Of a DNA stretch of 42,800 nt, positions 7,181-39,032 are shown in pieces. Location of the stretch: NCBI GenBank assembly GCA_016181965.1, contig JACOYH010000006.1, positions 1-42,800 on the forward strand, read 5' to 3'. Every line of letters starts with the position of its first letter. Within the stretch, counting starts at the first letter, position 1. A program made the position numbers and the translations under genes. The stretch is from Candidatus Nealsoniibacteriota bacterium. GTDB taxonomy: Bacteria; Patescibacteriota; Minisyncoccia; Minisyncoccales; MHMH01. Below the pieces are notes generated by a model. That model saw only the letters and a list, made by a program, of their open reading frames with translations. It did not search any database and was not told the origin of the DNA.

Positions 7181-7233
7181 GTTGGTTGAAGCCAGGCTCT
7201 AACCGACTCGGTTAGAGCCTGGCTTCAACCAAC
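7181..7233. repeat. Palindromic element family F1, copy 1
   Basis: gttggttgaagccaggctctaacc-gactc-ggttagagcctggcttcaaccaac, 24-bp perfect arms. Confidence 0.95.
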
Positions 7234-8773: not shown

Positions 8774-8802
8774 TGATGTTAGACATTCAATGTCTAACAT
8801 CA
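8774..8802. repeat. Perfect palindrome (14-1-14) between convergent genes
   Basis: tgatgttagacatt-c-aatgtctaacatca. Confidence 0.95.
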
Positions 8803-18750: not shown

Positions 18751-18799
18751 TTGCCGAGGACTGTCCTTGCCAGATTCTGGCAAGGACAGTCCTCGGCAA
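18751..18799. repeat. Palindromic element family F2, copy 1 (24-1-24)
   Basis: ttgccgaggactgtccttgccaga-t-tctggcaaggacagtcctcggcaa. Confidence 0.95.
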
Positions 18800-25214: not shown

Positions 25215-25685
25215 TTAATGTTTAATAATTTTCACTTTGGCCGGACGGATAACCTTCCCCTGCATCATATAGCCGCCTTGCACCACCTCTGCGACTTTCC
25301 CGGGTTCTTTCCCCTCAACTTCAGCAACTACTTCGTGGAAATTAGGGTTGAAATCCTGATTTAAAGCCGTTATTTCTTCCACCTCAAACGATTTGAGCAA
25401 CTCCTTCATCTGCGCCCCTACCAGCAAAAGACCCTTGAAATACCTATCCGCCTTAAGGTCTTCCGGAGTTTCTGCCTCGGCTCTTTCAAAGGTATCCAAG
25501 ATAGGGAGGAACTTAAGCGCCAATTCTTCGGCGGCAAATCTGATAATTTGGCCCATTCTTGTTAATTCCTCTTTCTTATAATTAATCAGGTCGGCTTTAG
25601 CTCTCTGCCAACCAGCCAGGTATTCGTCCCGCGCCTTGCAACATTCGCCCAATTCGTCTAATTCGTTTTTTATTTCTTCTTCCAT
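25215..25685 (-). CDS. grpE: Nucleotide exchange factor GrpE
   Basis: RAKADLINYKKEE, NPNFHEVVAEV, VVQGGYMMQGKVIRPAKVKI. Confidence 0.93.
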   Translation of the reverse strand: MEEEIKNELDELGECCKARDEYLAGWQRAKADLINYKKEELTRMGQIIRFAAEELALKFLPILDTFERAEAETPEDLKADRYFKGLLLVGAQMKELLKSFEVEEITALNQDFNPNFHEVVAEVEGKEPGKVAEVVQGGYMMQGKVIRPAKVKIIKH

Positions 25686-26311
25686 ATTTTTTGCATTAAA
25701 TTAATGTTTCTATCATAACTCATTCTCTTGGGTCCTAAAATAGCAAAGACCCCGCCATCAAACCCAGATGCTATTATACTGAAATCCTGTATTTTTGAAA
25801 ACGGATTCTCTTTGCCAATATATACTTGGATTTCCGGAGTCATTATGTCATTAATATTCTCCTCGAGGTCGTCGATCATTCTAGCAAAAGCCGCGGCCAG
25901 CCCCGGCTCATTAAACTCCGGTTCTTCAAAGATGTCCTGCCATCCCTGTTTCCAAAAAATTTCATCATCGGCTGAATAGCCCAAAGCCAAGGCAGATGTC
26001 TCTTCAGATAAAAATCTAATGATCTCTTGTATTGGCGACTCCATGCGAATCTCTACTGGATTTCTTCTGCGCTTCAATAAACTATCTACAAAAAACCTGT
26101 AGCCCTTGTCAGTTGGCACGCGGCCGGCCGAAGTATGCGGTTGGCAAAGATAACCATCCTCAGTGAGTTTTTGCATTTCATTGCGGATAGTCGCGGAAGA
26201 AACATCAAGACATTTCTTTTTTTCCAGCAAATGCGAACTAACCGGCTGGGCCAGCTTGACGTATTCTCTGATAATTTCATCTAAAATATCCGCCTGTCTG
26301 TCGGTTATCAT
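25670..26311 (-). CDS. hrcA: Heat-inducible transcription repressor HrcA (short form)
   Basis: TDRQADILDEIIREYVKLAQPVSSHLL...SSATIRNEMQKLTEDGYLCQPHTSAGRVPTDKGYRFFVD. Confidence 0.92.
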   Translation of the reverse strand: MITDRQADILDEIIREYVKLAQPVSSHLLEKKKCLDVSSATIRNEMQKLTEDGYLCQPHTSAGRVPTDKGYRFFVDSLLKRRRNPVEIRMESPIQEIIRFLSEETSALALGYSADDEIFWKQGWQDIFEEPEFNEPGLAAAFARMIDDLEENINDIMTPEIQVYIGKENPFSKIQDFSIIASGFDGGVFAILGPKRMSYDRNINLMQKIWKKK

Positions 26312-26346
26312 AATCGTCTATATGTGTATACTCCATTGTAATAAAT

Positions 26347-26373
26347 TTAGCAATCTCCTGTCAAGAGTGCTAA
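26347..26373. promoter_or_regulatory. CIRCE operator overlapping the hrcA promoter
   Basis: ttagcaatc-N9-gagtgctaa; minus strand TTGACA lies in the 9-nt spacer, followed by N18-TACAAT. Confidence 0.9.
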
Positions 26374-26398
26374 CAGTCGGATATCTCGCCGTCTAGAG

Positions 26399-26450
26399 TT
26401 GGTTGAAGCCAGGCTCTAACCAAGCTTGGTTAGAGCCTGGCTTCAACCAA
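26399..26450. repeat. Palindromic element family F1, copy 2 (52-bp perfect palindrome)
   Basis: ttggttgaagccaggctctaaccaag/cttggttagagcctggcttcaaccaa. Confidence 0.95.
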
Positions 26451-26451
26451 A

Positions 26452-26486
26452 CAAAAATGGCCCTATAAAATTATAGAGGCCACTTG
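26452..26486 (-). terminator. Intrinsic terminator of the 26538..26774 gene
   Basis: Minus strand TGGCC(T)CTATAA-TT-TTATAGGGCCA followed by TTTTTGTTT. Confidence 0.8.
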
Positions 26487-26537
26487 GGGTGAATAAAAAG
26501 AGTTAGGGCGGAGTAACTTAGTTACCCCGCCCTTGAA

Positions 26538-26774
26538 CTACTTTTCCGTTCCGGGCCAGATGGCCTGGATTGCCAAGACTTCTCTTCGCTCGATAAGCTC
26601 AAGACGTTCTTTACAGAGCCTGTCCTGTTCCTTACTGATCTCGGAGAACGCCACCTCGATGGCCGCACGGCCGGCATCAGTATGCACCCTCATATCCTGC
26701 AATTGTTTGCCCCTGGCCGCAATCTCCGCAAACCTCTCCTGGATCTCATTAAGCCTTTCTAGAATAGCATCCAT
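26538..26774 (-). CDS. Small coiled-coil protein of unknown function (78 aa)
   Basis: MDAILERLNEIQERFAEIAARGKQLQDM...; SD AAAAAAGGAGAGG upstream; own promoter and terminator. Confidence 0.7.
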   Translation of the reverse strand: MDAILERLNEIQERFAEIAARGKQLQDMRVHTDAGRAAIEVAFSEISKEQDRLCKERLELIERREVLAIQAIWPGTEK

Positions 26775-26809
26775 TTCCCCTCTCCTTTTTTGTACTTTGT
26801 ACTGCCAAT

Positions 26810-26838
26810 AGTATAGCACGCCTTGTCCAACTTGTCAA
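26810..26838 (-). promoter_or_regulatory. Sigma70-type promoter, TTGACA-N17-TATACT with TGC extended -10
   Basis: Minus strand TTGACAAGTTGGACAAGGCGTGCTATACT. Confidence 0.75.
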
Positions 26839-26879
26839 GTCCGGTACATTCTACTCTGAAATGAAACACGGAAGTAAGT

Positions 26880-26905
26880 ACTACTATACTACATAGTATA
26901 GTAGT
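26880..26905. repeat. Perfect palindrome (12-2-12)
   Basis: actactatacta-ca-tagtatagtagt. Confidence 0.95.
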
Positions 26906-26917
26906 GCCGAGGCCTAG

Positions 26918-26964
26918 TGCCGAGGACTGTCCTCGCCAGATTCTGGCGAGGACAGTCCTCGGCA
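26918..26964. repeat. Palindromic element family F2, copy 2 (23-1-23)
   Basis: tgccgaggactgtcctcgccaga-t-tctggcgaggacagtcctcggca. Confidence 0.95.
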
Positions 26965-26971
26965 AAGTCCT

Positions 26972-27000
26972 TCTCGTCGTCTAGAGTTGGCTTCAACCAA
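26972..27000. repeat. Hairpin-less F1 site; direct repeat of the F1 copy 2 flanks
   Basis: tctcgtcgtctagagttgg|cttcaaccaa versus tctcgccgtctagagttgg-[38-bp hairpin]-cttcaaccaa at 26384..26450. Confidence 0.85.
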
Positions 27001-27082: not shown

Positions 27083-27994
27083 ATGAGGCGAACAATCAGG
27101 GGGCCAAAAATTACTTGGATAGATATTCAAGACCCCACTCCAGACGATGTCAGGTATGTGCGGGATAATTTTAAGTTTCACCCAATAGTGTTGGATGAAT
27201 TGATTCCCCCGGGATACAGGCCCAAAATAGAGCGCTACAACGGCTACCTTTTCATGATGTTTTATTATCCCATCTATAATAAAGAAAAGAGAGAAACGCG
27301 CTCACGAGAATTAGATATGATTGTCACCAAAGACACGATCGTCACTAGCCATTACCGGTCTATTTTGCCCCTTAAAGCCCTCTTTGACCGCTGCAATCTT
27401 TACGCGGAAGCGAAACAAGAATATATGTCGCAAGATACGGGCATTTTGCTTTTTCATATTTTAAACGGTTTTTGGAAAACCTGCTTAGTCAAGCTCGTTC
27501 AAGTGGACAAGCGTCTCGACCAGATAGAACGGGAAATTTTTAGGGGCAAAGAAAGAGAAATGGTGACGGAAATTTCCTACGTCAAAACAGATATTATTAA
27601 TTTCTGGAGAATTCTTGAACCGCAGGGGCCGATCCTAAACTCTCTGACGGCTGAAGGCGCATCATTTTTTGGAAAGGAAATGGATCCATACTTTGCCGAC
27701 ATCCAAGGAACTTACGGCCAGGCCTGGAACAGCTTGAAAACATATAAGGAAACCATTTTAGCTCTGGAAGACACCAACCAATCACTGCTCTCAACCAAAA
27801 CAAACGAAACCATCAGAGTGCTTACGGTCTTTTCGGTTATTATATTGCCATTAACTCTGCTTGCCAGCTTGTGGGGTATGAATGTTCACGTGCCATTTTC
27901 CGGGGGGACTATCGGCTTTTGGATTATTGCCGGCGCCATGGTTGTCTTAACCATTTTTATGTTTGGCTACTTCAAAAGACGAAGATGGTTATGA
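27083..27994 (+). CDS. CorA-like Mg2+/divalent cation transporter
   Basis: C-terminal two-TM region with YGMN-like motif (LLASLWGMNVHVPF) and cytoplasmic helical domain. Confidence 0.85.
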   Translation: MRRTIRGPKITWIDIQDPTPDDVRYVRDNFKFHPIVLDELIPPGYRPKIERYNGYLFMMFYYPIYNKEKRETRSRELDMIVTKDTIVTSHYRSILPLKALFDRCNLYAEAKQEYMSQDTGILLFHILNGFWKTCLVKLVQVDKRLDQIEREIFRGKEREMVTEISYVKTDIINFWRILEPQGPILNSLTAEGASFFGKEMDPYFADIQGTYGQAWNSLKTYKETILALEDTNQSLLSTKTNETIRVLTVFSVIILPLTLLASLWGMNVHVPFSGGTIGFWIIAGAMVVLTIFMFGYFKRRRWL

Positions 27995-38172: not shown

Positions 38173-38889
38173 TTATTCTATTCCTACCTGTTCAAAATCG
38201 GCTAACTCTTTTTTAAACTGAAGCCAATCATTCACAAATCTTTGACTCTCTTTTGTCCCGCCAATCTCTTCAAGCAAAAATTCCCTACTGGTCACTGATG
38301 GGAAATTTTTTCTGCTTAAATAATCGGAATAGCTTGACCATCGATAATTTTCTATGAATTTTATTACCCTTTGCAAGGCCTCGCCCTTAATGCCTCTTTC
38401 CTTCCATTTCGGCACTAAAATAGCCACCGGATTAGTATGAATATAAACAAAAACTGTCAATAATTGCTTATCATTTTTAATATGGACAATCCGATATTTA
38501 CCCTGAAATAGATGACCGCTTCTTTTATATTTTTTGTTGTAATAGCCGCCATATCCCGCTCCGATCTTCCTCATTAGTTTACTAATGCCTCCTTCCTTCA
38601 GCTGTCTTACTAATAAATGCACATGATTCGACATCAAACAAAATGCTAAAATCTCAGTTAAAAGCTTTCTTGGTTCCCTTTCTATCGGTAATGAGTCGAG
38701 AACCGTTCTCGACCTATTTATCGTGTTGCGATATGACGATGCCGCAGGCGCCTCATTGTTAAATACAAATAAATCGTGAATCATTCTTAAAAAATCTTTT
38801 TGGTTACGAAAAAGTTCTATGTTCTCTATCGCTCGAATAACAATGTGGTAGATTTCTCCGTTAGCTAGTTGTGGTCGCTTGATAGGCAT
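38173..38889 (-). mobile_element. REP-associated tyrosine transposase (RAYT / Y1_Tnp, IS200-like) gene
   Basis: GEIYHIVIRAIENIELFRNQKDFLRM, FCLMSNHVHLLVRQ (HUH), SGHLFQGKYRIVHI, FVYIHTNPV, YRWSSYSDYL. Confidence 0.9.
38693..38713. repeat. Palindromic family F3, copy 2 (inside the RAYT-like CDS, in frame)
   Basis: gagtcgagaac-c-gttctcgac; encodes RSRTVLDS. Confidence 0.95.
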
Positions 38890-39004: not shown

Positions 39005-39032
39005 AAAAAAGCGGCTCCGGGGAGCCGCTTCT
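39005..39032 (-). terminator. Intrinsic terminator of greA
   Basis: Minus strand AAGCGGCTCC-CCGG-AGCCGCTTTTTT. Confidence 0.85.

Follow-up and report, generated by a model that had tools for sequence, protein, structure and literature searches.

The window analysed here is the whole stretch of 42,800 nucleotides taken from contig C8 of a Candidatus Nealsoniibacteriota bacterium; the assembly (15 contigs, 99% complete, 603-kb genome) was built from one sample, and the data are those of this single genome. At the junction under study, hrcA (25670..26311, minus strand; Pfam HrcA, 5.6e-15), the first gene of hrcA-grpE-dnaK-dnaJ, is the left neighbour and corA (27083..27994, plus strand; Pfam CorA, 2.9e-57) the right neighbour of an inserted block. 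The hrcA promoter, located by a promoter scan (TTGACA at 26364 to TACAAT at 26335), is overlapped by TTAGCAATC-N9-GAGTGCTAA at 26347..26373, an operator that is CIRCE-like by comparison with the CIRCE consensus; both are undamaged and lie directly to the left of the block. hrcA and corA are divergent neighbours also in the single same-genus genome compared (CorA 79% identical), with a gap of 102 bp versus 771 bp here. Another family member has a gap of 105 bp, and the 102–105 bp gaps of these relatives hold no remnants. The difference in gap length relative to the congener indicates that the block was gained in the present lineage, and its gain at hrcA-corA is confirmed. In a third relative (G005), a 578-aa ATPase-like gene fills the gap (L065 248-1984), which suggests that genes have been taken up at this junction more than once.

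The block carries a 78-aa ORFan gene (26538..26774, minus strand) with a sigma-70-type promoter, TTGACA-17-TATACT, at 26810..26838 and an intrinsic terminator at 26505..26533, both on the minus strand, making its earlier designation as a transcription unit plausible. Its sole relative in the collections searched is a paralogue at C12:70868-71107 (about 60% at the amino acid level), where the promoter elements are conserved; no homologue was detected in 382 class members, GTDB species contigs, viral contigs or plasmids. Vertical conservation at the locus, looked for as the observation that would contradict an acquisition, thus failed to appear, considering the junctions of 102 and 105 bp and the absence of the gene from the 382 relatives. 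The two ORF copies are 74% identical (26% different) at the nucleotide level and both intact, with 29 amino acid changes compared with 36.7 under random substitution (P 0.004) and a dN/dS of about 0.4–0.65, consistent with the gene being cargo under weak purifying selection. The protein has no credible match in Pfam, NCBIfam or PHROGs (best PHROG E 0.004, unknown function). It is predicted to fold into a helical hairpin (pLDDT 91), and the PDB contained nothing matching this fold with an E value under 0.001; going by the predicted structure, it would be a small helical binding protein at most.

The duplicated unit and its donor

A search of the own genome with positions 26380-27000 returned one long second match, C12:70766-71275. 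The alignment starts at 26449, at the end of palindrome F1, and stops at 26972, at the outer end of palindrome F2, where the right flank repeat begins, thereby delimiting a duplicated unit of 26449..26972. On contig C12, the order is relA 3' end, 78-aa gene, palindrome F2 and parB. The leftmost 44 bp of the unit (26449..26492, plus strand) are the last 14 RelA codons (K W P Y K I I E A T W G E stop), identical to the C12 relA in 42 of 44 nucleotides and able to form a hairpin, TGGCCCTATAAAATTATAGAGGCCA, at 26456-26480; a RelA protein search independently matched window positions 26434-26493. The residues KWPxKxIEAxW are found, with small changes, in the RelA of all five relatives examined. As the relA tail in the window cannot serve RelA there, the donor was a relA-parB-type locus. 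relA and parB are neighbours in the congener as well; its relA has an additional ACT domain and a 4-bp overlap with parB. Judged from the alignment, the block is a dispersed duplication of a relA-parB-type segment, the second copy of which occupies the gap between hrcA and corA. The C12 relA (L009 90-1814) is devoid of the C-terminal ACT domain present in the congener, and the 78-aa gene and F2 fill the space between this shortened relA and parB; a short relA also occurs in two other family members.

F1, palindrome F3 and the flank repeat are lacking from the C12 copy, such that the terminal sequences are not the same at the two copies, and no flanking duplication was seen there beyond a 9-bp match taken as chance. 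Since the C12 unit is devoid of the repeat and F1, with homology starting inside the relA tail and ending at F2, the repeats represent target-side sequence. This has consequences for the preliminary description, in which repeat, gene and repeat had been viewed as one unit that might be encountered elsewhere: the gene does occur a second time together with F2, but the flank repeat and F1 are absent at that place, and the homologous segment runs from the relA tail to F2 instead. A reading as a mobile cassette is likewise not supported, given the existence of two copies only, their 74% identity over the ORF and the absence of a recombination enzyme from the unit.

Direct repeat and palindromes

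The direct repeat around the gene, 29 bp with one mismatch, proved to be real and non-random. Its 19-bp part, TCTCGCCGTCTAGAGTTGG at 26384-26402 and TCTCGTCGTCTAGAGTTGG at 26972-26990, has two matches in the window versus 0.01 expected in shuffles (at most 3 mismatches), and a chance origin was rejected on these grounds. In the own 603-kb genome, these two places are the only ones that match with up to 2 mismatches, while four more match with 3 mismatches, approximately the level of a reversed-pattern control. Each repeat copy is closed by TGGCTTCAACCAA (26438-26450 and 26988-27000). The left copy begins with the target flank TCTCGCCGTCTAGAG (26384..26398, plus strand); the right one (26972..27000, plus strand) consists of the target flank TCTCGTCGTCTAGAG followed by TTGGCTTCAACCAA, which appears to be an F1 copy without its 38-bp core. 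Between TTGG and CTTCAACCAA, 38 bp of F1 are found on the left, and the two motifs are directly joined on the right, as previously reported; the interpretation of this pair as a filled and an empty F1 site, however, is not sustained, because the right copy retains the F1 termini TTGG...CTTCAACCAA and therefore corresponds to an F1 copy minus core. Most other F1 sites preserve the same termini in spite of unrelated flanks.

All three palindromes are located where they had been described. F1 (26399..26450; 26-bp perfect arms; about 12 genomic places) is a REPIN-like inverted pair of TTGGTTGAAGCCAGGCTCTAACC hairpins, and F2 (26918-26964, or 26918..26972 including its outer extension; about 9 genomic places) is a REPIN-like inverted pair of CGAGGACWGTCCTCG hairpins that forms the right edge of the duplicated unit in both the window and the C12 copy. 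Thus, F1 and F2 are each composed of two REP-type hairpins in inverted orientation, the arrangement by which REPINs are defined, and both are nearly absent from the 19 relatives searched. F3 (26880..26905; about 5 genomic places) is present in the window copy, but not in the C12 copy. Overall, the window contains nine palindromes with arms of at least 13, compared with 0–2 in shuffles. Further hairpins in the window include another F1 copy (7181-7233), another F2 copy (18751-18799) and TGATGTTAGACATTCAATGTCTAACATCA at 8774-8802, which resembles the hairpin bracketing the C13 Y1 transposase gene near 116.6 kb. At G000:C14:43457-43540, a AATACACCGGTTCAACCGGTGTATT hairpin, the type that brackets the C13 Y1 gene near 188.5 kb, comes immediately after an F1 copy, indicating that different hairpin families nest side by side.

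Y1 transposase genes

The genome harbours seven Y1 transposase genes, five of which are bracketed by near-identical hairpins roughly 350–520 bp from the domain centre, with a different hairpin type for each gene: the IS200-type one on contig C4 by the F1 half-hairpin and four of the six others by a hairpin pair of their own. On C4, GGTTAGAGCCWGGCTCTAACC occurs at 866, 1090 and 1661, around and within the Y1 gene (C4:924-1658), and an F1-type hairpin lies in frame inside its coding sequence (L087 1088-1112). With regard to a GT[AG]G guide tetranucleotide 5' of the hairpin, GTTG/GTCG begins two of the three C4 hairpins, and no tetranucleotide is common to the five pairs. The C4 protein scores 25.8 bits against Y1_Tnp (PF01797; cut-off 23) and has the HUH motif NHFHLL; with 14.2 bits versus a cut-off of 80, it fails the NCBIfam model NF047646 (REP_Tyr_transpos). 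Because the protein falls short of the formal RAYT model, we use the wording ‘RAYT-like’. A Y1 (RAYT-like) gene is also found in the window (38173-38889, minus strand; PF01797; 43 bits to NF047646, cut-off 80), where it adjoins a different hairpin at 39007-39032. None of the seven Y1 genes has an F2 or F3 half-hairpin beside it, and no partner transposase was found for these two palindromes. By analogy, the arrangement of Y1 genes and hairpins is that of the REPtron/REPIN pattern, and F1 is probably a non-autonomous hairpin element spread by the C4 Y1 (RAYT-like) transposase.

Discussion

For the scenario as a whole, we lean, with modest confidence, towards a dispersed duplication that occurred only once and was joined at hairpins by replicative template switching, rather than a self-mobile cassette. 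Template switching at hairpins suggests itself because the unit has its edges at two hairpins and the target flank and F1 are found on both sides, all of which a single event would explain. According to this model, F1 would already have resided at the hrcA-corA site before the duplication. At the F1 hairpin, DNA synthesis in replication or repair may then have switched template to the relA-parB segment, utilizing short A-rich homology (CAAAC beside CAACCAA), and about 520 bp would have been copied as far as the F2 hairpin. A return of copying to the target upstream of F1 would have left flank and F1 twice, once on each side. Subsequently, slippage or excision of the REPIN may have removed the 38-bp core, located between TGG repeats, from the right F1, giving rise to the empty-looking repeat, and F3 would have inserted into the window copy only. 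In line with the loss step, the right repeat TTGG-CTTCAACCAA is best read as what is left of an F1 copy after excision or deletion, with breakpoints in the TGG repeats. If a filled/empty pair is sought at this locus, F3 is the better one, being present in the window copy and not at the same place of C12, although loss at C12 is conceivable as well.

Divergence between and within the copies is uneven, with 1/29 differences in the flank repeats, 2/44 in the relA tail, 3/54 in F2 and 99/391 in the interior; comparing the ends (5/98) with the interior yields P 2e-6. Measured against the interior, the flank repeats thus look younger than the divergence of the gene. The favoured duplication model therefore needs an additional component, be it conversion, constraint or the arrival of a diverged allele: stem constraint may have preserved the relA tail and the palindromes, with conversion keeping the flank repeats alike, or else a diverged allele may have entered by import or exchange. 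The last variant leads to an explanation with the same anatomy, according to which the unit was recently imported by horizontal transfer from the relA-parB allele of a diverged strain and joined at F1, or a diverged allele later took the place of the C12 gene. It would directly explain why the gene copies share 74% identity when the ends and the flank repeats reach about 95%, but among the genomes searched there is no other one with the 78-aa gene that could have been the donor, the two changes in the relA tail are both nonsynonymous with zero synonymous ones, unlike a tail diverging while coding, and conserved stems could account for the ends by constraint. We consider import or replacement possible, yet clearly less probable than the duplication outlined above.

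More doubtful is a movement of the unit by a Y1 (RAYT-like) transposase, with the relA-tail hairpin as the left and the F2 hairpin as the right end. A hairpin is indeed situated at either end of the unit (26456-26480 in the relA tail, and F2), and seven Y1 genes are available in the genome. Transposition of the IS200/IS605 type, however, is not known to duplicate its target, yet the flank is present twice; furthermore, F2 hairpins were not detected beside any of the Y1 genes, and there are two copies only. We are equally sceptical of the general notion behind such a hairpin-bounded gene capture, namely that REPIN hairpins and Y1 enzymes can capture and relocate host DNA that has a REPIN on one side and a chance hairpin, in this case that of the relA tail, on the other. 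If true, it would turn REPINs into gene-capture elements of a streamlined genome and the 78-aa gene into cargo with a donor tag.

Still less probable is the insertion of a cassette with a 29-bp target duplication, followed by entry of F1 into the left copy only. The 29-bp direct repeat with its one mismatch around the unit is what such an event would leave behind, but the right repeat as pre-insertion site is disfavoured by the F1 termini that it carries: the supposed target TTGGCTTCAACCAA recurs at F1 sites with unrelated flanks, so that chance identity over about 10–14 bp would be needed, and the C12 copy has no comparable flanking duplication. An old, vertically inherited hrcA-corA gene that was lost in the relatives and has chance repeats next to it, for which the intact ORF and nothing more can be adduced, is rejected in practice by the attached relA tail, the empty junctions without remnants, the absence of homologues from the class members and GTDB species contigs searched, and the non-random repeat.

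The duplication model provides a concrete case of small palindromic mobile elements reshaping a 0.6-Mb genome, with edges at hairpins and a congener site without the block. Donor tags are rare in dispersed duplications; here, the 44-bp relA tail reveals the source. In addition, five Y1/hairpin pairs are documented in a genome that is Patescibacteria-like in its size and gene complement, and our literature search returned no paper linking REP/RAYT with Patescibacteria, nor one linking REP sequences, template switching and gene duplication.

Comparison with known systems

With a composite transposon or MITE-bracketed cassette, the locus shares a gene that lies between repeats and palindromes and was gained at this site. 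In contrast to such a cassette, the unit is bounded by a relA fragment on one side and a REPIN on the other instead of by matching terminal repeats, the two copies are diverged, and the flanking repeat consists of target plus F1 and is absent at C12. A copied segment, junctions at hairpins and short homology, and a doubled target flank are features of template-switch (MMBIR-like) duplication, which has been described chiefly in experiments and in eukaryotic genomes, whereas here the switch would have to be deduced from one static sequence.

REPINs are REP doublets that form hairpins (Bertels and Rainey 2011, PMC3116915). F1 and F2 resemble them in that each consists of a short hairpin doubled in inverted orientation and scattered over one genome, and the F1 half stands beside a Y1 gene. 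The presumed history of F1 at this locus has counterparts as well, since tandem repetition of REPINs along with flanking sequence, as well as their asymmetric loss, has been described for P. fluorescens (PMC3116915). Unlike REPINs, F1 and F2 are present in about 9–12 copies rather than hundreds, their halves overlap into a nearly perfect palindrome of 47–52 bp with almost no spacer, and F2, like F3, is without a partner enzyme among the seven Y1 genes. RAYT/TnpA-REP proteins and REPtrons (PMC6006769) have in common with the present genes the HUH motif, the Y1_Tnp domain and the bracketing of the gene by its own hairpin type; even the in-frame hairpin of the C4 gene has a precedent in some tnpA-REP genes, those of subclass 2.4 (PMC6006769). 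They differ in that the proteins found here reach 14 and 43 bits relative to the NCBI RAYT equivalog cut-off of 80, that no clear GT[AG]G guide was seen and that five enzyme/hairpin pairs coexist in the present 0.6-Mb genome. Taken together, a tagged dispersed duplication beside REPIN-like elements is a new case of known kinds.
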